33,472 bases of DNA, from positions 1-33,472 of the forward strand of contig JAPKYE010000059.1 of assembly GCA_026394495.1 (NCBI GenBank). Reading direction: 5' to 3'. The translations under genes were made by a program, and so were the position numbers. The stretch's first letter is position 1. Each line of letters begins with the position of its first letter. The DNA comes from Methanobacteriota archaeon. GTDB taxonomy: Archaea; Thermoplasmatota; E2; DHVEG-1. The notes beneath the pieces are model-generated. The model searched no databases, was not told the origin of the DNA, and saw only the letters and a program-made list of their open reading frames with translations. Shown here in pieces: positions 213 to 28,491 of the stretch.

Positions 213-895
213 TTTGTCTCTACATTTTTTTCATCATTTTCAGCAAATCGCGAAAGCGTCTTGTAACATCGCATGAGGTTTTTATGGTCAATAATAATAC
301 TCATCTCTGTTGAGGTGAGGATAATACTTGTGATGTTGATGTTTTCCCATGCAAGGAATCGGACGACGTCATAAAGCACTCCTGGGGTGAATATAAATTC
401 TTTTGAGTATGTCAGAGAAATAGAGACTAATCCTTCTACGACGTCTAAGACTTTTTCTTCATTTAAAACATCCAACAGTTCTTCTTTATATTTTTTGTTT
501 GTAATGATCCCTATTTCAAAATTCCCCTGGGTGATATTGAGGATACCGCCTTTTCTAAAATCAATGACTGGATACAGCATTTGAATTTTATTGAGAAGCG
601 TTGGTGATTCCTCCAGCATCACGTAGCAGATATCTGTTTTGATGGTCCCAATGTAATAACTGAATTTTGGTTCTATCAACATTTTTTCTGCTTTTTCTGC
701 TTGTCGCCGAAGCGCCATAACGATTGCTGAGTTTTTTACTTCTTTTTTAAGTTCTTCTTCTATTTTTGGTTTAAGATATCTTGCGAGTTTATTGAATGAA
801 ACGATTTCATGGTTGATTGCTTCTTGGAGAAAAATTTGTCTGTTGATGATATCTTTTACGATGTTGCTTACGGTCACCATATCCGGTTCCCCCAT
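209..895 (-). CDS. ACT-domain-like regulatory protein (archaeal aspartate-kinase-like ACT repeat protein)
   Basis: 228 aa ORF. C-terminal half reads as an ACT-like fold (VLYDVVRFLAWENINITSIILTSTEMSIIIDHKNLMRCYKTL). Confidence 0.6.
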   Translation of the reverse strand: MGEPDMVTVSNIVKDIINRQIFLQEAINHEIVSFNKLARYLKPKIEEELKKEVKNSAIVMALRRQAEKAEKMLIEPKFSYYIGTIKTDICYVMLEESPTLLNKIQMLYPVIDFRKGGILNITQGNFEIGIITNKKYKEELLDVLNEEKVLDVVEGLVSISLTYSKEFIFTPGVLYDVVRFLAWENINITSIILTSTEMSIIIDHKNLMRCYKTLSRFAENDEKNVETK

Positions 896-1184
896 GTTAT
901 CTATTTTTGTTACTATTCTACTACTAGTTGTTCATTCTGATTACAAAATTGTGTAAATAATAACTATTATTTATAGTTTCGTTAGAGGTGTTACGTAACC
1001 TATTTTAACAATATTTAGTCTTTCTATCTTAATGAGAACTAGTATGTTGGGAAAAAAAATTGTTATAAATAATTTTGCCGCCTCACCCATTCTTGTTATT
1101 AAAATAACATTTTTGTTCCGTATTCTAATGGCTTTACAACTACATGAACCACGAGAAATCCCTTAGGAAACCGGGGGAAAAAAA

Positions 1185-1310
1185 ATGGACGATGAATATT
1201 GGAAACTCTATAAGATGTTTCGGGAGAATGGCTTGCTTCCCGAAGACGCGGTAATTCGAGCACATGAAAGCATGAGAACCATGGTTGAGGAACATAAAAA
1301 CCCAACCTAA
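1185..1310 (+). CDS. small ORF, 41 aa hypothetical
   Basis: MDDEYWKLYKMFRENGLLPEDAVIRAHESMRTMVEEHKNPT; GGGGG purine-rich stretch just upstream of ATG; coding-like composition. Not in the supplied ORF track. Confidence 0.4.
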   Translation: MDDEYWKLYKMFRENGLLPEDAVIRAHESMRTMVEEHKNPT

Positions 1311-1335
1311 AGTAACGAAAGGGGAGTTGAAAAAT

Positions 1336-1464
1336 ATGGAAATAAAAATTGTCGGGTCTATAGGGGATCGTGATGAGGTAGACACCATAAAAAGAATAAC
1401 TGAAGTTTTCATCATTGAGCGAAGAATAAAAAATCTTGTTTACCCGCAAGAGAGCGAGAAATAG
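1336..1464 (+). CDS. small ORF, 42 aa hypothetical
   Basis: MEIKIVGSIGDRDEVDTIKRITEVFIIERRIKNLVYPQESEK; preceded by GGGGAG; 25 nt after the previous small ORF. Confidence 0.45.
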   Translation: MEIKIVGSIGDRDEVDTIKRITEVFIIERRIKNLVYPQESEK

Positions 1465-1659
1465 ACACGCATGCATTTGTTGTCTAAAGGAACAAAAATT
1501 CTTGATATTATAAAAAATAATACCTATAAAAAAACAATTACTGATCCGTGTTTACCTCTCTAAATGTATTTATCAGTAACAAAACGTGTCGTTTTGCCTG
1601 ATGACACCTGAGGAAAAGTTTTTTAAAGTAGTGCTTTGTTACAATTCTGAGGCTATATC

Positions 1660-3363
1660 TTGGGGGAGTCAAAAACAAGAGCTATCATCGTATGTACCTT
1701 ACTCTGTTTTCTCCTTATAGTATCCAATGCTTCTGTAAGCAGCAAATTCATCTCATCACACAAGTCTACCTCAACTGAAAAACCTCTTCTGTCTGAACAA
1801 AACATCATCATTGCCCCCCCAGAATTCTATGATGCTGCAAGAGATCTTCAACAATTCCGCAATGGCGAAGGGATTTCAACTGTTATTGTAAATACAACCT
1901 TTATCAACACCAACTATGATCCTGCAGAAGATCCACCATTTAAAGGATATGCAACAGGCAAGATTCCTCGACTACTTATACGAAATTACAATTATGATTT
2001 CGCAAAAAAAATCATTACGTTCTTACGCGATAATGCAACCCATCCAAACATGGAATACGTCACTCTTTTTGGTAATGGAGAATTTATCCCTGCAAGCTAC
2101 TATATCCATTCAGAAATGCGATGGACCAAAAAAATCCTTAATTTATTTACCATTCCTGATATGTATAATAATCGTATCGCAACTGATTTCTTCTACACAT
2201 CTCCTGATTACGATCTTAATACCGACTATAAAGTTGGACGTATCTCAGTATCCACTCCCACTGAAGCAACCGCGTATGTCCACAAAATCATCAGCTGGCA
2301 GCAAAACGTAACATGGGACTGGTTTCAACAAGTTATTGTCGGCGGTGACCAGCCAAATCTCCCAGAAGAGATGGATCTAGATGGATGTTATGCTGGAGAA
2401 ATGATTGCAGCAGATGTAATCAACAAGGGATATTTCCAAGGGATGGATATTTCAAAACTCTTTTTAACAGAAGGAAACTTCAATAAATCCTGCATCATCA
2501 AAGCACTCAAGGAGGGAGAATCAGGTTTTTTCTTCATGATGACCCATGGCATTACTGATCGATGGGGCACATCCGAAATGAAAGAATATGTTAATGCTGA
2601 TGAAATGCTTGAGCTTCCTGAGAATACTAAAATCCCTGTGATTGTCTCAGTTGCATGTATGTGCGGTGCGTATGATACGCATTCCATGCATCCTCTTTTC
2701 TTTATGAGGAGTGGGCAGAAATCATTTGGCGAAGCCATTCTTACCTCAAAAGGTGCAGGTATCGCCTATATTGGCACTACCCGGGGGACGCTCGGCTCTC
2801 CTCTTCTTTATCTTGATGATGGAGAAGTGATGATAACCAAAGAACGCGGGATTGCTGGAATGCTTTTGAATTTTTTTGAGGAATATCACAATGGAACTAT
2901 TCGCCTTGGGGATATTACTACAGCAGCGATGACCAAATATGTACAGCAGAATGTTTTTTCAGATACACCCGAAACAGATGAAGCCTTCGCCGTCTTAATG
3001 AGCTTTGTTTTACTTGGTGATCCCGTGATTTTACTCCCACAACAACAACCACAAAGCAGGCCGTCATACCAACAACCACATCTCACCGCAATAGACCCTG
3101 AGGGCTCCACCTCAGAAACGCATTCTCGTCCTTGGTACTCTACCAACGCAACAGTTCATATCCAGATTGAAACCAACTCTTCACAAGTATCGGTGAAAAT
3201 CATTGATATCGATACCAACACGGTAGTTGATCGACAAACCTTCATATTGGTCAATAACTCAACAGAGTATACATTTACCTCTGCAAACGCTGCCCGGTAT
3301 CTAATCCGCGCAAGTGGAAATGACGGCAAAGAAGGATGGCTCTATTGTACAATAAAAGATTAA
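1660..3363 (+). CDS. secreted C25 (gingipain-like) cysteine peptidase
   Basis: Signal peptide, then C25 domain with candidate His (MMTHGITDRWG) and Cys (SVACMCGAYD). TTG start; in-frame TGA at 1648-1650. Confidence 0.8.
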   Translation: MGESKTRAIIVCTLLCFLLIVSNASVSSKFISSHKSTSTEKPLLSEQNIIIAPPEFYDAARDLQQFRNGEGISTVIVNTTFINTNYDPAEDPPFKGYATGKIPRLLIRNYNYDFAKKIITFLRDNATHPNMEYVTLFGNGEFIPASYYIHSEMRWTKKILNLFTIPDMYNNRIATDFFYTSPDYDLNTDYKVGRISVSTPTEATAYVHKIISWQQNVTWDWFQQVIVGGDQPNLPEEMDLDGCYAGEMIAADVINKGYFQGMDISKLFLTEGNFNKSCIIKALKEGESGFFFMMTHGITDRWGTSEMKEYVNADEMLELPENTKIPVIVSVACMCGAYDTHSMHPLFFMRSGQKSFGEAILTSKGAGIAYIGTTRGTLGSPLLYLDDGEVMITKERGIAGMLLNFFEEYHNGTIRLGDITTAAMTKYVQQNVFSDTPETDEAFAVLMSFVLLGDPVILLPQQQPQSRPSYQQPHLTAIDPEGSTSETHSRPWYSTNATVHIQIETNSSQVSVKIIDIDTNTVVDRQTFILVNNSTEYTFTSANAARYLIRASGNDGKEGWLYCTIKD

Positions 3364-3405
3364 TAAGATATTTCTTCTACAACTGATGAATTATTTTTCT
3401 GCTTC

Positions 3406-3954
3406 TCAGACAGGCTCAAAACTAGGTGTAACACTACCTTTTTGTTCTGCTTGTAATCGAATCATGGCTAAATCAGCTTCAAAACTATCCCCGCCCCCGC
3501 CTCCGCCACTTTTCTGCAGGGTGAAACTTACACTTGCAGAAGGATGTTCAACTGTGAGGGTTATTGTCTGAGATTGCGACACATATCCTGGGTAACTTGC
3601 AGTCACCGTATGGGTCCCATATGCTAGATTACCAATGGAGTAGCCACCACCAAAGCCTGTCAATGTAGATTTGCTCCCTGCTGAAACAGGTGCAAATATC
3701 AGGGGAACGAGCGCCCATCCATAAGTTCCAAACACCGTTCCAGAAACACTCCCGTACTGAGAATCATCTCCGCTACCCCCAGAACCATCATCATAATAAG
3801 ATACATCCTTGACAAAAACAGTTTGAGTCATACTGCCGCTTTGTTCAGCCCCTCCAGATCCTGTGCCATTCGTAGAAGCCAAAGCACCATTTGATAATAA
3901 AATCACAAGCGTTACCAGTGCAATCACAAATATCTTTTTCATAGACATATGCAA
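3406..3954 (-). CDS. secreted protein with carboxypeptidase-regulatory/PEGA-like domain
   Basis: N-terminal signal peptide; SVSGTVFG...GGYSIGNLAYGTHTVTASYPGYVSQSQTITLTVEHPSASVSFTLQ; Gly-rich linker. Confidence 0.65.
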   Translation of the reverse strand: MHMSMKKIFVIALVTLVILLSNGALASTNGTGSGGAEQSGSMTQTVFVKDVSYYDDGSGGSGDDSQYGSVSGTVFGTYGWALVPLIFAPVSAGSKSTLTGFGGGYSIGNLAYGTHTVTASYPGYVSQSQTITLTVEHPSASVSFTLQKSGGGGGGDSFEADLAMIRLQAEQKGSVTPSFEPV

Positions 3955-4166
3955 CCTTCTGTGTTCTTATCACCATACAGAAACCCGTACGGCACGGAAC
4001 ACTACATATAATATAATCATCGGTAGTATATAAAATTTGTGTGAATTTCCCTATATTTTTAGTGATTTTCTGTAGCATGCTATAACATCATGTTATTTTT
4101 ATAATCAAGACATTATTTTATGAATGAACGGCAGCCTCCTTTATTTTCGCAATAAAAAAAGTTTGT

Positions 4167-4772
4167 TTAAATTTTCTGTTTGATTTTTTTATATGCGTTC
4201 ATTCCTTGCACAAATGCATTCTTATTAACCATCTTATATTTTTCAGGGATATTCTCAAGAATCGTCTCAAGCAAAACTTCAGATGGAAACGGCAAAACAT
4301 CGGTTCCTGCAAGCGCGCCCAAAAGCACACTATTTCGCGTAATCACTGCGCCAGCGTTTTCCGCAATCTTAAGAGCATCAATCGGGTACAACTCACCATA
4401 CATCTTCAACTCAGAAAAAATATCCTCAAGAGATGGATAGATCTCCCCGCCAACCGCAACAGTAAATGGAATCAAAGGATTTGTATCCGTAATAATCTTT
4501 GTTTTCTTATGAGCATACGTGATATAACGAAGCGCCTCCACAGGTTCCGTACTTACAATCACATCAGCACCACCATTAGGAACCAACGGACCAGACACAT
4601 CGCCCATACGCACAGTACAACTCACGCTTCCTCCACGCTGCGCCATCCCATGAATCTCAGAAGTAAACACATTCACTTTTCCATTAATTCCTGCTTTTCC
4701 TAGAAGATTCGCTGCGGTCACAACACCTTGACCACCAACACCAGCAAGCACAATGTTCACTTTTTTATTCAT
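4167..4772 (-). CDS. iorB: indolepyruvate:ferredoxin oxidoreductase beta subunit
   Basis: NIVLAGVGGQGVVTAANLLGKAG...EIHGMAQRGGSVSCTVRMG, typical of the gamma domain of 2-oxoacid:ferredoxin oxidoreductases; 4-nt ATGA overlap with iorA. Confidence 0.9.
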   Translation of the reverse strand: MNKKVNIVLAGVGGQGVVTAANLLGKAGINGKVNVFTSEIHGMAQRGGSVSCTVRMGDVSGPLVPNGGADVIVSTEPVEALRYITYAHKKTKIITDTNPLIPFTVAVGGEIYPSLEDIFSELKMYGELYPIDALKIAENAGAVITRNSVLLGALAGTDVLPFPSEVLLETILENIPEKYKMVNKNAFVQGMNAYKKIKQKI

Positions 4773-6661
4773 TTTTTCCCTCCTTTTTTTGAGATGGCAC
4801 TAAACGGACAGATCTGCGTACAGATACCGCAGCCGTTACATTGTGTAACATCAATATGAATGCTTTTATCATCAGCAAAATACAATGCAGGACAACCAAA
4901 TCGACCAATACAGGTTTTACACTGCTTACATTTACTTTGATCAATCTCATAAATAGCAATGTTTTCACCTGCTTTTCGCTTCCGTTGCACCTCCAGAAGA
5001 ATACATGGTGATTTACTGACGACAACTGCTGGTCCTTTGAAATCAATCGCACGCTTAAACGCAGCAGTCGTCTCCTTCAAATTATCTGGATTCACAATCT
5101 CGATATGTTCCACACCAAGGCCTTTTACGACATCCTCGACATTGAGGCGTTTTGCTGGTCGTCCCATCCCATCAATATCGGTTCCAGGATTTGGCTGATG
5201 ACCAGTCATCGCAGTTGTTCGATTATCAAGAATAGTGATCACAACATCGTGATTATGATGCACTGCGTCAATAATCGGTGGAATACCAGAATGGAAAAAC
5301 GTGGAATCACCCATAAAAGAAACGATTTTCTGATCAGTGGATACTGCTAGACCACATGCTGTTCCTGCGTTTGAACCCATACAGAGCAGAAGATCAGCGA
5401 TTTCCAGTGGCGGGGCTTTCCCAAGCGTATAACAACCGATATCAGTTGGATAAATAGTGTCCTTTGGAGCTGCTTTTTTCACCGCATAATACGTTGATCG
5501 ATGCGGACAACCAGGGCAGAGCGATGGAGGCCTGCTAGGAAGTTTTAGTTTCGATTCAAAAGGTTGAGGGTACGGGTTTTTCGTTTTGAAAAATTTTGAA
5601 AACGCGGCCGCAACGATATCCGGAGTATATTCATATAAACGAGAGAAATGACCTGTTGATTTACCAATGATCTTTACATCAGATCCGATGTCGTGAGCAA
5701 ATGTTTTGAATTGCTGCTCAAGAATCGGTTCGAGTTCTTCAACAACGATAATGGTTTCGCATGAGTCGATGAATTTCTCACACATCTTTCTTGGGATTGG
5801 GTGGGTCATACCCAGTTTTAATATCCTTACGTTCAGATGCATGTCTTCAGCGACTTCTTTTGCGTAATCAAAACCAACACCTGATGCTACAATCCCGATA
5901 TCTCCAGGTTTACCAATTGTGATGATTTCGTTAAACGGCGATTTCTCAGAGATTTTTTCAGCGTCGTCAAGATGCTGCAATAAAACCGGGTGTTTCGCCC
6001 GTGCTGTTGAAGGGACGGTGACAAGCAACGGGTTTTTTTCAAAATGTCCTTTTCTTCGTGGTTTTTGCAATGCGTTGAATACGGTTGGTCCACGAGCATG
6101 GTTTAACCGCGTGGTGGTACGAAGAAGTATCGGAAGCTCTAGTTGTTCTGAGATGTCAAAGCCTATTCTTGTCATCTCTTTTGCTTCCTGCGGCGTGGTC
6201 GGTTCAAGCATCGGTGCACCGCCAAAGATTGCGAAATATCTGTTATCCTGTTCGTTTTGAGACGAATGACAATAGGGATCATCAGCGGAGACGATGATGT
6301 GTCCTCCTTTGCAGCCGACGTACATGTACGTCATAAACGCATCGCTTGCAACATTGAGTCCCACGTGTTTCATGCAGGTGAGTGCCCGCAGTCCACAAAA
6401 CGATGCAGCGGCAGCAATCTCAAGTGCAACCTTTTCATTAACAGAATATTCAAAATAAAACCCTGGGTCTTTGTCTTGTTTTGTTGCTTCTTGGGCTATT
6501 TTTGAGAATGTGTCCGCAATTTCTGACGAGGGTGTCCCAGGATATGTTGTTGCGACATCGACTCCTGCTTCTAATGCACCGCGGGTAATCGCTTCGTTTC
6601 CTAATAGTAGTACACGCTTTCCTTTGTTATCTTCTGTTATCTCCATCATGAAAAACACCAT
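4769..6661 (-). CDS. iorA: indolepyruvate:ferredoxin oxidoreductase alpha subunit
   Basis: TYPGTPSSEIADT, CPGCPHRSTYYAVKKA, GDSTFFHSGIPPI, C-terminal 2x[4Fe-4S] motif CKQCKTCIGRFGCP / CNGCGICTQICP. Confidence 0.95.
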   Translation of the reverse strand: MVFFMMEITEDNKGKRVLLLGNEAITRGALEAGVDVATTYPGTPSSEIADTFSKIAQEATKQDKDPGFYFEYSVNEKVALEIAAAASFCGLRALTCMKHVGLNVASDAFMTYMYVGCKGGHIIVSADDPYCHSSQNEQDNRYFAIFGGAPMLEPTTPQEAKEMTRIGFDISEQLELPILLRTTTRLNHARGPTVFNALQKPRRKGHFEKNPLLVTVPSTARAKHPVLLQHLDDAEKISEKSPFNEIITIGKPGDIGIVASGVGFDYAKEVAEDMHLNVRILKLGMTHPIPRKMCEKFIDSCETIIVVEELEPILEQQFKTFAHDIGSDVKIIGKSTGHFSRLYEYTPDIVAAAFSKFFKTKNPYPQPFESKLKLPSRPPSLCPGCPHRSTYYAVKKAAPKDTIYPTDIGCYTLGKAPPLEIADLLLCMGSNAGTACGLAVSTDQKIVSFMGDSTFFHSGIPPIIDAVHHNHDVVITILDNRTTAMTGHQPNPGTDIDGMGRPAKRLNVEDVVKGLGVEHIEIVNPDNLKETTAAFKRAIDFKGPAVVVSKSPCILLEVQRKRKAGENIAIYEIDQSKCKQCKTCIGRFGCPALYFADDKSIHIDVTQCNGCGICTQICPFSAISKKGGKK

Positions 6662-24040: not shown

Positions 24041-24175
24041 ATGAATACCGCAGAACAAGTAAAAAAGCTGTACGAGGATGCAGTGGTAAACCATATGCTT
24101 GGTAAAGGATATTCTGAGGAGCGCGTTCGTGCAGAGGCGCAGAAGATATCAAATATCATTGTAAAGAATGAGTAG
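24041..24175 (+). CDS. small ORF, 44 aa helical hypothetical
   Basis: MNTAEQVKKLYEDAVVNHMLGKGYSEERVRAEAQKISNIIVKNE; TATA-like TTTTAAAG about 40 nt upstream; not in the ORF track. Confidence 0.5.
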   Translation: MNTAEQVKKLYEDAVVNHMLGKGYSEERVRAEAQKISNIIVKNE

Positions 24176-24398
24176 TTGAAGGATACGAACAGCATCGTTG
24201 TTAAGAGTATGGTATGATTGGTGCGGTGGTATCTACATTTGGTGTTATCACTATTTTTTTACAGGGTGTGCGTTCTTTATAAAGCCGTATCTTAAGAATT
24301 ATTGGAACTGATCTTTTATTTTTCTCCTTATGTGGTATTTTCTTTGAACTGTCATTCTGTCACGACAGGTATATAAACAATGACAGTTAAAGTATATC

Positions 24399-24530
24399 AT
24401 GAGAAAGAATAACAAAGGTGGTAGGAAAAAGATGGTTGATATAAAAATCCAGGCGACAACAATAGCTATTGGAGTAGCTTCTGGCATTACCCCGTTATTG
24501 TGTAAAGGGATAACGCCATTTCAGTTCTAA
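24399..24530 (+). CDS. small ORF (43 aa, or 32 aa from ATG at 24432) hypothetical peptide
   Basis: MRKNNKGGRKKMVDIKIQATTIAIGVASGITPLLCKGITPFQF; TATA-like GGTATATAAAC near 24368-24378 and an AAAGGTGGTAGG SD-like stretch before the internal ATG. Confidence 0.35.
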   Translation: MRKNNKGGRKKMVDIKIQATTIAIGVASGITPLLCKGITPFQF

Positions 24531-24552: not shown

Positions 24553-25539
24553 TTAGATTTCTGGAATAAAACGTAGTTTATAATTTTTTGCTACAGTGAA
24601 GTAGTCGTATTTTCTGATTGCTCCGGGAAATTTTAGATGAATATCATCCATAATCTGATTAAGTTTATCAGAATCTTCTAAATAAAATTCCAATTCTAGA
24701 TCGGAGACACCTGCGGATGTCCCTATAAATGTTAGATACGGATTATTTTTAATGTAATTCGTGATATGATTGCGTTGTGTATGTTCTTTGAGATGTGCAT
24801 CAATTTTAAAATGTTTTAAACCAAATTTTGAGATGTCAATGCCAATACGAAATGCTTGAATAACTCCTGATTTCGTAAGATTATTAAGTCGATAGTTTAT
24901 TGTTTGCGAAGAACAATTCAATTTTTCCGCAAGATTAATAAGTGGGATTCGTGCATTTTCTGCTATTAGGTTTAGAAGGTGGTAATCGGTTTCATCAATA
25001 TCAACGAGTTCTGCTCTTCCACCTGTGATTTCATATTTTAAACGGTCTAGATCTTTAGTTTCTTCTAACAGAAGATATGAATTTCTATATGTATACCATT
25101 TTACATACAAAGAAAAAACTTTTTCTGCAAAATAATCTCCATAGTTATCAAGCATTTTTTCCCAGAAATGATAAAAATCATTGATATTTTTAATCCAAAG
25201 AAAAACCACCAAATCATATCTTCCAATAATTGAGTTGATAACACAAGTATGCTTTTCTTTAATAAGATATTCAATAACTTTATTCTTGATATCTGGGGTA
25301 GCATATTGGAATACCAGGTAGAAACGAAAAACATTATAACCCAACTTATATGCATCAATGAGCGTCCAAAAATTTTTTATAATTCCTTCATCCTGCATCC
25401 GTTGAACTCGATATACAACCATGTCCTTCTTTAATCCTACTTTTTTACCGATTTGGGTGAACGATTGTCTGGCGTCTAAATCTAATTCGTAGAGTATTTT
25501 TCTGTCTTTAATATCTATGGGCGTCATAGGTTTCTGCAA
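24553..25539 (-). CDS. Lrp/AsnC-family regulator with duplicated HTH + RAM-like units
   Basis: IDIKDRKILYELDLDARQSFTQIGKKVGLKKDMVVYRVQRMQDEGIIKNFWTLID and IDETDYHLLNLIAENARIPLINLAEKLNCSSQTINYRLNNLTKSGVIQAFRIGID. Confidence 0.85.
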   Translation of the reverse strand: MQKPMTPIDIKDRKILYELDLDARQSFTQIGKKVGLKKDMVVYRVQRMQDEGIIKNFWTLIDAYKLGYNVFRFYLVFQYATPDIKNKVIEYLIKEKHTCVINSIIGRYDLVVFLWIKNINDFYHFWEKMLDNYGDYFAEKVFSLYVKWYTYRNSYLLLEETKDLDRLKYEITGGRAELVDIDETDYHLLNLIAENARIPLINLAEKLNCSSQTINYRLNNLTKSGVIQAFRIGIDISKFGLKHFKIDAHLKEHTQRNHITNYIKNNPYLTFIGTSAGVSDLELEFYLEDSDKLNQIMDDIHLKFPGAIRKYDYFTVAKNYKLRFIPEI

Positions 25540-25656
25540 GAATGAGAATCATCTGGGTATTTTAGAGTTTTTCCAGTGTTTTTCCTACCGTTTTTCGGTA
25601 CAGTTTGTACAACAAATCTTATATGTTAAATACATATGTCACATCGGTTAAGCCCA

Positions 25657-26004
25657 TCATTCCTCCCTAAATCTCTGTCGATTAACATGGGGATCAAATG
25701 CCTGGCAATCGTATAAACTGTAGAAATCCATCAGGTCCATTTTGATATTCAGATAATGCAGTAACGCTGTGAGATGTTTACCTGCAGTTTCAGAGAATAT
25801 GGTGCTCCAGCGCAGATGTGTAAAACGAACTGCTTCTTTGCCTTTGGCCTCAGCCATCCTTCGAACAAGGTTGTAAATCAGCCTACTAACAAGAAGTGTA
25901 AGTATAGCCACCCAAATCAAGGCCTCAACGATATTTGCATTGGTAGTTTTGATCATATCCAAAGCATATTTACTCTTAAGTTCTTTGAATATAAGTTCTA
26001 TCCG
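25657..26004 (-). pseudogene. 5'-truncated transposase (IS4-like C-terminal fragment)
   Basis: RIELIFKELKSKYALDMIKTTNANIVEALIWVAILTLLVSRLIYNLVRRMAEAKGKEAVRF..., C-terminal part of IS4-type DDE transposases; in-frame stop immediately upstream at 26005-26007. Confidence 0.75.
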
Positions 26005-26181
26005 TTAGTCATCGGTTAAGGGCATTTTACTGTGGTTCAGCTTCATTCATGGCTCATATTTAGTACCCTAACTCGATGCCAAAGATTGTTTGTCAACAGG
26101 AGAAAACAGCCTATTTCTGCTTGATTATGGTTACATGTAAAGAATTTGTTGGTAAAAGTTACCTATATTACTCATATTTTG

Positions 26182-26400
26182 CTAAAACTTCTGGATAGCC
26201 TTCATGATTTCCTTATTATATTCCTTTTTGATCCGTATATGTCTGATTATTGCGCAATAGAGTTCTCCCTTCAACTTTTCTGAATCGATTCTTTTCTCCA
26301 TCCTTCCTTGATATTTCCAGATTTGTTTCTTCTGTTTAGGATCCCACTTCACTTCATAAGCATACTTACAGCCTTTAATCGTCTTTATTACCTGCGTCAT
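26182..26400 (-). CDS. small ORF inside the IS remnant, possible transposase N-terminal fragment or passenger
   Basis: MTQVIKTIKGCKYAYEVKWDPKQKKQIWKYQGRMEKRIDSEKLKGELYCAIIRHIRIKKEYNKEIMKAIQKF; beta-hairpin-like start reminiscent of transposase N-termini. Confidence 0.35.
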   Translation of the reverse strand: MTQVIKTIKGCKYAYEVKWDPKQKKQIWKYQGRMEKRIDSEKLKGELYCAIIRHIRIKKEYNKEIMKAIQKF

Positions 26401-26568
26401 AGTTAATATTGGTAACTTGTTATCAATAGTTGATCTAATCTGTTGAAACCATGTTATTTTGATCCTTGTATTTTCTTAACCGATGACACATGAATTGTAC
26501 ATTTAAAAGACAGAAAAAGCCATTTCAAGAGTTAACTATATAAACATTTTCATGATTGAAACCTATGG

Positions 26569-28491
26569 ATGGAGATGTACGACAAGAAATCAGTGTTACT
26601 TCTTTCGATGCCGTTTGCAGGCGCTGCTATCCCATCTATACAACTTCCAATATTGGAAGGATATCTCAAGAAACGAGGTATCAATGTTTCGACGCGTCAT
26701 CTGTATTTGAAAGCAGCTGAGCATTATGGAATAAATAACTATAATTTTTTGATTTATCCACCAAACGATTCGTATACTGCACAGATGCTTTTTTCTAAAT
26801 ATGTGTTTCCTGAACACTGGGAAATAAACATCGAAAAATTTCAACAATATTTTCAGAAACAATCATCTCAAAATACAGAAATCCAAACCAATTTTACGTT
26901 TGAGATGTATATTCAACGAACAGATATATTCTATGAATGGGTCCTTAACCAAGTTGACTGGAGGGCATATGACATTATTGGGTTTACTTTAAATTACGGA
27001 CAATTGTTGCCATCACTTGCGATTGCGAAAAAAATCAAGGAACTTCAGCCGGAAAAAAAGATTATTTTCGGGGGCAGTCGAACCGTTGGAACAATGGGCG
27101 TTCGCGTATTAGAGACGTTTCCCTATGTTGATTTCATTGTTTCAGGCGATGGCGAGGAAGCATTGTATCGCATTGCGTCAGACTTTGATCATTTAGAATC
27201 AATACCACGACTCATGTATAAAAAAGAAAATGAAGTTCTCTGGAATAAATCTGAGGGGATTGTTGATATTAATCAACTGTCTGTTCCATCGTACGATTCG
27301 TTTTATGCAGAGCTAAACACTGTATCGGAAGAAGTGCAGCAATATTTTCATTATTACGGCAGGCTCCCTGTGGAAATCTCGCGGGGATGTTGGTGGAATC
27401 GCTGTAGTTTTTGTAACTTGAATCTCCAACATCCAACATATCGAGAAAAAACCGTGGAAAAGATTGTTGAAGAGATTCAGTTATTATCAGATAAATATAA
27501 GATGCTGTCATTTCAGATCATTGGGAACACACTGTTAAAAAAAGACTATGGAAATCTATGCGAAAAAATCAAAAAGTTCGGAAAGGATTTTTCGTTTTTT
27601 GTTGAAGCACGTGCCGGACAACTCGCCAGTACGGACTACACGATGTTAAAAGACACAGGGTTTACCACAATTCAAACCGGGATTGAATCCTTCAGCCCGC
27701 ATTACCTAAAAAAAATGAACAAGGGAGCCAGAGTGATTGATAACGTCGCAGCATTAAAATTCTGTAAGGAGAACGGAATTATCAATGCGTATAATCTCAT
27801 TATCGATTATCCAAATGAGGAACCAGTTGATTTTGAAGAGACAAAAAAGAATATCCAGTTGTTTAAACAATATCTTGACCCGCCGCAAATCTGTTCCCTT
27901 CGCGTATTATATGGAAGCCCTATTCATCAGAATCCTTCAGAATATAATATCGAATCATTGACGTTTGTACCAATTGATCAACTCATGTACCCACAAGAAG
28001 TGTTAGAAAAAGGGTTCAACTTCGTCTCTGATTTCAAGAAAAGAATCGATTACGGAATAAATGATTGGAATGCGCTTGTAGATGACTGGAAGAAAGAACG
28101 AGAACGACTTCAACTCGAAGGACTCAAACGACAAACACCAATCGACCAATTTATTTTTTATTTTGTTGACGGCGCCAGTTTCATAAAAATCTATGACAAA
28201 CGACAAGCAGATGTGAAAATCTATGTGCTCGATGAACGAGAGCGGATGGTTTTTCTCTCTTGTATTGACGTGATTTCATTTCAAGAAATACAAGATCGTT
28301 ATCCACATATTCCTGAGTATGAGCTTGCTGCAATACTTGATTCCTTTGAACATAACGGTCTTGTATTTTGCGAAGACGAATACTACCTTTGTCTCCCGTT
28401 GCAATATAGCCTTCTGTTTGGTACGCAACAAAAAAACATTACACAAAACAAAAATCAGACAACAGTTATATCTTGTGAATCAAACATCTAA
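26569..28491 (+). CDS. B12-binding/radical SAM protein, RiPP-maturation-type
   Basis: N-terminal cobalamin-binding-like domain (IIGFTLNYGQLLPSLAIAKKIKELQPEKKIIFGGSRTVG) and radical SAM motif EISRGCWWNRCSFCNLNLQHPTYREKTVEKIVEEIQLL, resembling the RiPP maturation radical SAM C-methyltransferase family; C-terminal winged-HTH-like tail. Confidence 0.7.
   Translation: MEMYDKKSVLLLSMPFAGAAIPSIQLPILEGYLKKRGINVSTRHLYLKAAEHYGINNYNFLIYPPNDSYTAQMLFSKYVFPEHWEINIEKFQQYFQKQSSQNTEIQTNFTFEMYIQRTDIFYEWVLNQVDWRAYDIIGFTLNYGQLLPSLAIAKKIKELQPEKKIIFGGSRTVGTMGVRVLETFPYVDFIVSGDGEEALYRIASDFDHLESIPRLMYKKENEVLWNKSEGIVDINQLSVPSYDSFYAELNTVSEEVQQYFHYYGRLPVEISRGCWWNRCSFCNLNLQHPTYREKTVEKIVEEIQLLSDKYKMLSFQIIGNTLLKKDYGNLCEKIKKFGKDFSFFVEARAGQLASTDYTMLKDTGFTTIQTGIESFSPHYLKKMNKGARVIDNVAALKFCKENGIINAYNLIIDYPNEEPVDFEETKKNIQLFKQYLDPPQICSLRVLYGSPIHQNPSEYNIESLTFVPIDQLMYPQEVLEKGFNFVSDFKKRIDYGINDWNALVDDWKKERERLQLEGLKRQTPIDQFIFYFVDGASFIKIYDKRQADVKIYVLDERERMVFLSCIDVISFQEIQDRYPHIPEYELAAILDSFEHNGLVFCEDEYYLCLPLQYSLLFGTQQKNITQNKNQTTVISCESNI

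Follow-up and report, generated by a model that had tools for sequence, protein, structure and literature searches.

The window, by which we mean the whole stretch of 33,472 nucleotides analysed here (contig C71 of a 2.2-Mb genome), contains a gene for a B12-binding/radical SAM protein, a gene for a transcriptional regulator, and a candidate gene for a very small peptide. The features of this region are as follows.

24362 to 24431, plus strand: conserved upstream element with a TATA-like box, an operator-like AAAGTATATCATG block and a ribosome-binding site, AAAGGTGGT (from alignment and a held-out model)
24432 to 24530, plus strand: candidate precursor peptide gene, 32 aa, MVDIKIQATTIAIGVASGITPLLCKGITPFQF (from leave-one-out and held-out models, codon and repeat tests)
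24553 to 25539, minus strand: two-HTH Lrp/AsnC-type regulator, start likely ATG 25527 (from HTH matches and neighbourhoods)
25540 to 26529, no strand assigned: inserted DNA from regulator to enzyme, with a transposase-like fragment at 25657-25962 and a second fragment at 26182-26400, both on the minus strand
26530 to 26545, plus strand: promoter-like block, agttaactatataaac, ending about 25 nt 5′ of the enzyme's ATG (from orthologues' upstream sequences)
26569 to 28491, plus strand: B12-binding/radical SAM protein, 640 aa, TIGR03975 family
26569 to 27303, plus strand: N-terminal cobalamin-binding (Rossmann-like) domain, residues ~1-245 (from a weak PF02310 match, predicted fold and PDB matches)
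27388 to 27414, plus strand: iron-sulphur cluster motif CX4CX2C, with C274, C279 and C282 (from reading of the sequence)
28120 to 28428, plus strand: C-terminal domain, residues 518-620, short beta strands and a winged helix (from predicted fold, Foldseek and TIGR03975 coverage)

The host can be placed through its relatives. Those recovered by the alignment query include SM1-50, SG8-52-3, M9B1D and 3300003432D, which are listed as Thermoprofundales (MBG-D archaea) in PMC6461988, and the window therefore comes from the MBG-D/Thermoprofundales group (Thermoplasmatota), an uncultured group that is among the archaea most often found in sediments (PMC6461988). Orthologues of the enzyme, 46-65% identical over the aligned proteins, were found in 21 of the 60 relatives sampled. 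These 21 all belong to the host's family, and the sampled members of other families of the order or class have none; in a phylum-wide sample, the enzyme is present in 30 of the 46 genomes of the host's family. The metagenome-assembled genomes used are fragmented.

The open reading frame at 26569-28491 is intact over its 640 codons, and by sequence its product is a full-length and genuine member of TIGR03975 (NCBIfam rSAM_ocin_1, RiPP maturation radical SAM C-methyltransferase). The family HMM matches residues 9-611 at 351.7 bits, spanning model positions 1-606 of 606, against a curated cut-off of 281.85 bits; the orthologues score 302-376 bits. An earlier note on this DNA had called the protein RiPP-maturase-like and had proposed an HMM search as the check. 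The call held, with the remaining radical SAM families scoring far under their respective cut-offs. Pfam Radical_SAM matches residues 268-426 (66 bits), and residues 269-294 read EISRGCWWNRCSFCNLNLQHPTYREK; the match to Pfam B12-binding (PF02310) is weak (residues 125-202, 21.2 bits, under the cut-off of 32.1). An AlphaFold2 model of the whole enzyme (pLDDT 90.1, pTM 0.88) has OxsB, TsrM, CysS, MgmA and TokK as its nearest solved structures, all of them cobalamin-dependent radical SAM enzymes, and a sequence-based profile search concurs. In its predicted fold the enzyme is a cobalamin-binding domain followed by a radical SAM core, which agrees with the cobalamin-like N-terminus that had been suspected.

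The C-terminal region of about 90 aa had been described as a winged-helix or RRE-like tail. Predicted alone, the domain is a winged helix preceded by short strands (pLDDT 90.5), and Foldseek matches it to winged-helix proteins with probability 1.00, though with E >= 0.014. The winged-helix half of the description is thus retained, while RRE identity stays a conjecture, with no PqqD/RRE structure among the best 50 PDB matches of the domain. Because the TIGR03975 model spans this region, the tail is a family-wide feature rather than an oddity of this protein. Upstream, the promoter-like block is conserved among orthologues and intact in the window; its position so near the ATG suggests a leaderless or near-leaderless transcript.

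The cluster motif of the enzyme departs from that of other family members. Every MBG-D orthologue read has SRGCWWNxCxFCN, i.e., CX4CX2C (one reads GCQWN), whereas SRGCWWGxxxxCxFCGLN, or CX7CX2C, is found in five bacterial members (Streptomyces, Sinorhizobium, Niallia, Paracoccus and Mesorhizobium) and in one archaeal member from another Thermoplasmatota family, the loci being L114 (the archaeal one), L125, L126, L128, L129 and L130. The CX7CX2C spacing of the bacterial TIGR03975 members was not found in any MBG-D orthologue read, and the MBG-D cluster-binding loop is accordingly three residues shorter. Since membership of TIGR03975 is set by a score cut-off and not by spacing, CX4CX2C marks a variant, and from the motifs it is a clade-specific shortening among the MBG-D orthologues read. 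The earlier remark that the motif carries N where the family often has G was correct, yet it understated the difference, the substitution being one part of a three-residue deletion in the cluster loop. PoyC and the bottromycin methylases have been reported with CX7CX2C (PMC11285071, PMC5682303).

A second point concerns the substrate. The earlier note had found no precursor peptide directly adjacent to the enzyme and had said that its reading would be refuted if orthologues never lay near short peptides. The first statement does not stand and the refuting condition did not arise, because a conserved tiny gene, 24432-24530, lies just beyond the Lrp gene, and a tiny ORF of 24-34 aa is present beside 25 orthologous loci, always in the enzyme's direction. 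In five loci this ORF immediately precedes the enzyme gene, without an Lrp gene in between; in most others, as in the window, it lies just past the regulator. The window's gene is the in-frame 3′ part of ORF 24399-24530, with its true start at 24432; the peptide at 24399, one of two that had been put forward as possible substrates, therefore does contain the conserved gene. The other, at 24041, was discarded as a substrate, since it belongs to an unrelated family of small soluble ORFs found at five loci only (~40 aa, LYE[D/E]A; L028, L029, L030, L050 and window 24041-24175), in the same direction and further upstream.

The peptides share a hydrophobic N-terminal part of ~15 aa with the pattern M-[E/D]-x-I-[I/V]-[I/V]-x-G-A-[V/I]-A-G-A..., followed by a variable, repeat-bearing C-terminus that often has a duplicated [I/V]xP motif, and they have no classical leader. 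They are strongly hydrophobic, rich in Ile and Val, and about as long as one membrane span; examples from relatives are METIIIGVIAGAVAAGVFPLQGVFPKLF, MEIIVIGIIAGAVASSICPRICPL, MTEIIIAGAVAGAIVAAGYMPGYMPLGVMPK and MDKIMVAGAIAGAIVAASTWVMPSL, as well as MEIIVIGVIAGAVASSICPRICPL and MEIIIIGMVAGAVAAGVMPLQAVMPKLF. In leave-one-out tests with a protein HMM, 24 of the 25 candidates outscored all other tiny ORFs at their locus (63-579 per locus); the remaining one lost to a fellow member of the peptide family that is encoded next to a second Lrp gene. The window peptide is among the most divergent (leave-one-out E = 3.7, yet first of 579), and its identification consequently leans on its control region, its position, a model-free pairwise match to the peptide of locus L043 (E = 1.9e-5 in a 0.64-Mb search), and its repeat, in which GITP occurs twice with synonymous codon differences at all four positions.

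The peptide itself is under selection. Changes at codon positions 1/2/3 number 26/8/54 when summed over five independent close pairs. An exact tripeptide repeat occurs in the C-terminal half of 16 of the 34 distinct peptides, compared with a mean of 1.06 and a maximum of 5 in 2000 shuffles, and the copy number of the repeats varies, e.g., SICPSICPSICPK in G029 and SICPSICPSL in L031. The third-position excess and the synonymously recoded GITP repeat show selection on the peptide and are marks of translation. No precursor emerged when ORFs near the orthologues were clustered with a minimum length of 45-60 aa, since the peptides have only 24-34 aa and change rapidly, and an early all-against-all comparison of shorter ORFs was set aside because it returned mostly shadow ORFs of neighbouring genes. 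Taken on its sequence features, 24432-24530 is probably the precursor gene that the enzyme seemed to lack.

The DNA upstream of the peptide gene is conserved as well. Common to the peptide loci are a TATA-like box, the AAAGTATATCATG... block, a ribosome-binding site that reads like GGATGGTGAG or GGTGGTGA, and an ATG at the same place in the alignment, and in several relatives the conserved block contains the palindrome TGTCA-N5-TGACA. A sequence-only model was made from this upstream DNA and the first codons of the peptide gene. When rebuilt without the window, the model detects 24369-24451 at 38.4 bits (E = 4.6e-11), the next best match scoring 12.4 bits, and in the window's whole genome this is the sole site; weaker matches of the model in that genome gave no further peptide genes. 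Over the 46 genomes of the family it recovers held-out members beside Lrp genes in G029, G032 and G140 and two more in G154, together with G014 and a second copy in G151. Across 81 genomes of the class, matches at E <= 1e-6 occur in 35 of 46 genomes in the family and in 0 of 35 outside it. At one locus (L208, G007:C134, 601-700), the element precedes not a tiny peptide but a 761-aa, secreted-looking protein, which hints at a wider regulon.

PF13412 and PF13404 each match two AsnC-type HTH domains in the regulator, whose match to the AsnC ligand-binding domain (17.4 bits) is below the cut-off. Of 33 loci, 25 have the regulator gene close to the enzyme but on the other strand; most often the two genes diverge across 45-166 bp, and in some loci the regulator is downstream and convergent. 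The loci without it are mostly cut by contig ends, L047 (G022) being a real exception. The two-HTH AsnC/Lrp family is expanded in the host's family (20 members in G001) and nearly absent outside it. In the window, the gap between regulator and enzyme is ~1 kb. The earlier note had seen an IS remnant here; an insertion relative to most relatives is indeed present, although its transposase-like fragment matches DDE_Tnp_1 at only 13.4 bits, and no second copy of the inserted DNA was found in the window's genome. An IS remnant is a plausible description of this DNA.

The peptide and the enzyme tend to be found together. Across the 46 genomes, 28 have both, two have the enzyme only, four have the peptide only and 12 have neither; a Fisher test, which makes no correction for relatedness, gives p = 3e-6. 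The peptides without a detected enzyme (G014, G015, G028 and G029) are at contig ends, and the enzymes without a peptide (G251 and G264) are on short or cut contigs.

We consider it probable that the enzyme is the maturase of a three-gene archaeal RiPP-like pathway and that it C-methylates a leader-poor peptide. The first gene would supply a precursor of 24-34 aa that combines a conserved, hydrophobic front with a variable C-terminal end; the N-terminal ~15 residues may be a recognition element and the C-terminal part may be the core. The second gene would encode the B12/radical SAM enzyme. Its most likely activity is C-methylation of side chains of the peptide, either at Ile/Val C-beta or at core residues, and its winged-helix tail is a candidate peptide-binding part. 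By homology, the enzyme would form methylcobalamin from SAM, and a 5′-deoxyadenosyl radical would take a hydrogen from a peptide carbon, after which the methyl group would be installed; PoyC, an enzyme with the CX7CX2C motif, methylates Ile and Val (PMC11285071). The third gene, the Lrp/AsnC regulator, most likely would control the peptide gene through the conserved upstream block and would perhaps respond to the product. Of this picture, the genomes establish the enzyme's family and predicted fold, the linkage of the three genes, the coding capacity of the peptide gene with the selection on it, and the conserved control region; the substrate, the modification and its site, the operator role and what the product does are inferred. 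With regard to the cofactor, CobS was found in only 2 of the 46 family genomes, and methylmalonyl-CoA mutase is encoded in 30 of them, and the host genome has a B12-dependent one, which makes imported cobalamin the likely source.

There are other possible scenarios. The tiny gene may be real while its product is not a substrate, being instead an unmodified membrane peptide or a ligand of the Lrp protein, with the enzyme modifying something else under the same control. The strong hydrophobicity and the length of the peptides would be in keeping with such a role, and the peptide-Lrp units are separable from the enzyme: in G154 (L122, G154:C10), three tandem peptide-plus-Lrp units with differing peptides lie upstream of one enzyme gene, and in G022 the enzyme is on a different contig from the peptide gene and its Lrp partner. 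We nevertheless regard this scenario as unlikely, because the enzyme's family modifies peptides, the presence of the peptide correlates with that of the enzyme, and the five loci with the peptide gene directly upstream of the enzyme have no Lrp gene between them. In addition, the sampled Lrp paralogues without an enzyme also lack the tiny peptide, which was not found beside the other paralogues in G001, G006, G034 and G026 or beside the second copy in the window's genome.

Some archaeal radical SAM enzymes act on isoprenoids or membrane lipids, and such a substrate would fit the neighbourhood of the enzyme, where a large share of loci have a downstream block of C7 or C10/C12 together with C2 (geranylgeranyl-reductase-like) genes, and where several orthologues adjoin genes for geranylgeranyl-reductase-like and acyl-reductase-like proteins. 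The block, however, is present in genomes without a detected enzyme (G029 and G015), and it is located elsewhere in the window's own genome, in G035 and in G251. A lipid or isoprenoid role read from the C2/C7/C10/C12 block was rejected for these reasons, and with the match to a peptide-maturase family over the whole length of the protein, we judge a lipid substrate to be very improbable.

An archaeal precedent exists for methylation in trans, in that MgmA and Mmp10 methylate methyl-coenzyme M reductase, and MgmA is among the nearest solved structures; the enzyme might likewise methylate a housekeeping protein. This is slightly less probable again, because the gene linkage indicates the tiny peptide, the enzyme is patchily distributed, and MgmA and Mmp10 are not known to be members of TIGR03975. 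Least credible of all is a reading of the tiny ORF as an upstream ORF with a regulatory, leader-type role, or as a non-coding element. This would account for the strong conservation of the upstream DNA but not for the way changes are spread over codon positions or for a repeat recoded with synonymous codons; moreover, in most loci the Lrp gene stands between the ORF and the enzyme on the opposite strand, its 3′ end towards the ORF, so that the ORF is unlikely to be a leader of either transcript.

The three-gene pathway that we favour can be compared with known systems. The bacterial TIGR03975 members resemble the window's enzyme in having homology over the full length, including the winged-helix region, and a small precursor gene nearby, which is of the Nif11 or pheganomycin type. 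The window's system differs in its CX4CX2C motif, in its 24-34-aa precursor without a Nif11 or NHLP leader, in its two-HTH Lrp/AsnC partner, and in having no conserved epimerase or exporter. In none of the 46 genomes did a Nif11 (TIGR03798) or NHLP (TIGR03793) leader score above cut-off, and the orthologues' neighbourhoods contain no conserved gene for a dedicated peptidase or exporter. The pheganomycin-type precursor of Streptomyces globosus (L125) is similar in being short (37 aa), having an internal repeat and lying right before a TIGR03975 enzyme; it has no apparent sequence similarity to the archaeal peptides, and its locus has a peptide ligase gene along with further biosynthetic genes. 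The C-methyltransferases of the proteusin and bottromycin pathways, of which PoyC was compared by description, also carry out cobalamin-dependent radical SAM C-methylation of ribosomal peptides, with Ile/Val substrates, and also have an unusual spacing of the cluster motif (PMC11285071, PMC5682303). Theirs, however, is CX7CX2C, and their precursors have large leaders or C-terminal followers, whereas the window's system has a loop three residues shorter and a minimal precursor.

A positive control within the same phylum is provided by locus L114 of G197. There, positions 409-5594 comprise a TIGR03975 enzyme gene followed immediately by an ORF of 116 aa, and also an ABC transporter pair and a gene for a YydG-like radical SAM protein. 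As in the window, the enzyme has beside it a short ORF that looks like a precursor, here with a hydrophobic C-terminus rich in Ala and Val (NKVAILVAVAAVGAAAYAVLWLWGPD); the differences are the CX7CX2C motif, the length of the precursor, which includes a long leader-like region with no NCBIfam leader match, and the transporter and YydG-like genes. By eye, the C-terminus at L114 is like the MBG-D peptides, which would fit the latter being precursors minus the long leader.

A bolder extension of the three-gene pathway is that it represents a new, minimal archaeal RiPP class, in which precursors of only 24-34 residues, from which no classical leader can be separated, are C-methylated by a CX4CX2C B12/radical SAM enzyme to give a product that is read by the Lrp/AsnC regulator. 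We offer this only tentatively and think it rather doubtful as a whole; if true, it would amount to a peptide-sensing circuit in uncultured MBG-D archaea, a group for which our literature search found no paper making a connection to RiPPs. The linked regulator in itself makes peptide signalling in archaea conceivable. A minimal precursor, a duplicated core and a shortened loop would also widen the known tolerance of B12/radical SAM peptide methylases. At a more practical level, what was apparently an orphan maturase becomes a concrete three-gene unit with a 32-residue substrate candidate, and the question of its substrate becomes directly testable by co-expression. A candidate of this size would be overlooked under the usual length limits of gene finders, which suggests that other "orphan" maturases may have missed precursors.

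Finally, we note some properties of the conserved block downstream of the enzyme, which occurs with or without the enzyme (L029-L049, L117, L120, L121 and L124, and L134 in the window's genome). It includes an unknown protein of ~420 aa (C10), an acyl-ACP-reductase-like protein, geranylgeranyl-reductase-like flavoproteins, a FIST-domain protein and an unknown protein of ~130 aa. Downstream of the enzyme at L031, L037, L039, L040, L043, L048 and L117, a conserved inverted repeat of the form CCTACAAAA...TTTTGTAGG, not always perfect, is followed by GGGGCTTTATG ahead of the next gene, an arrangement that by its sequence looks like a regulated promoter.
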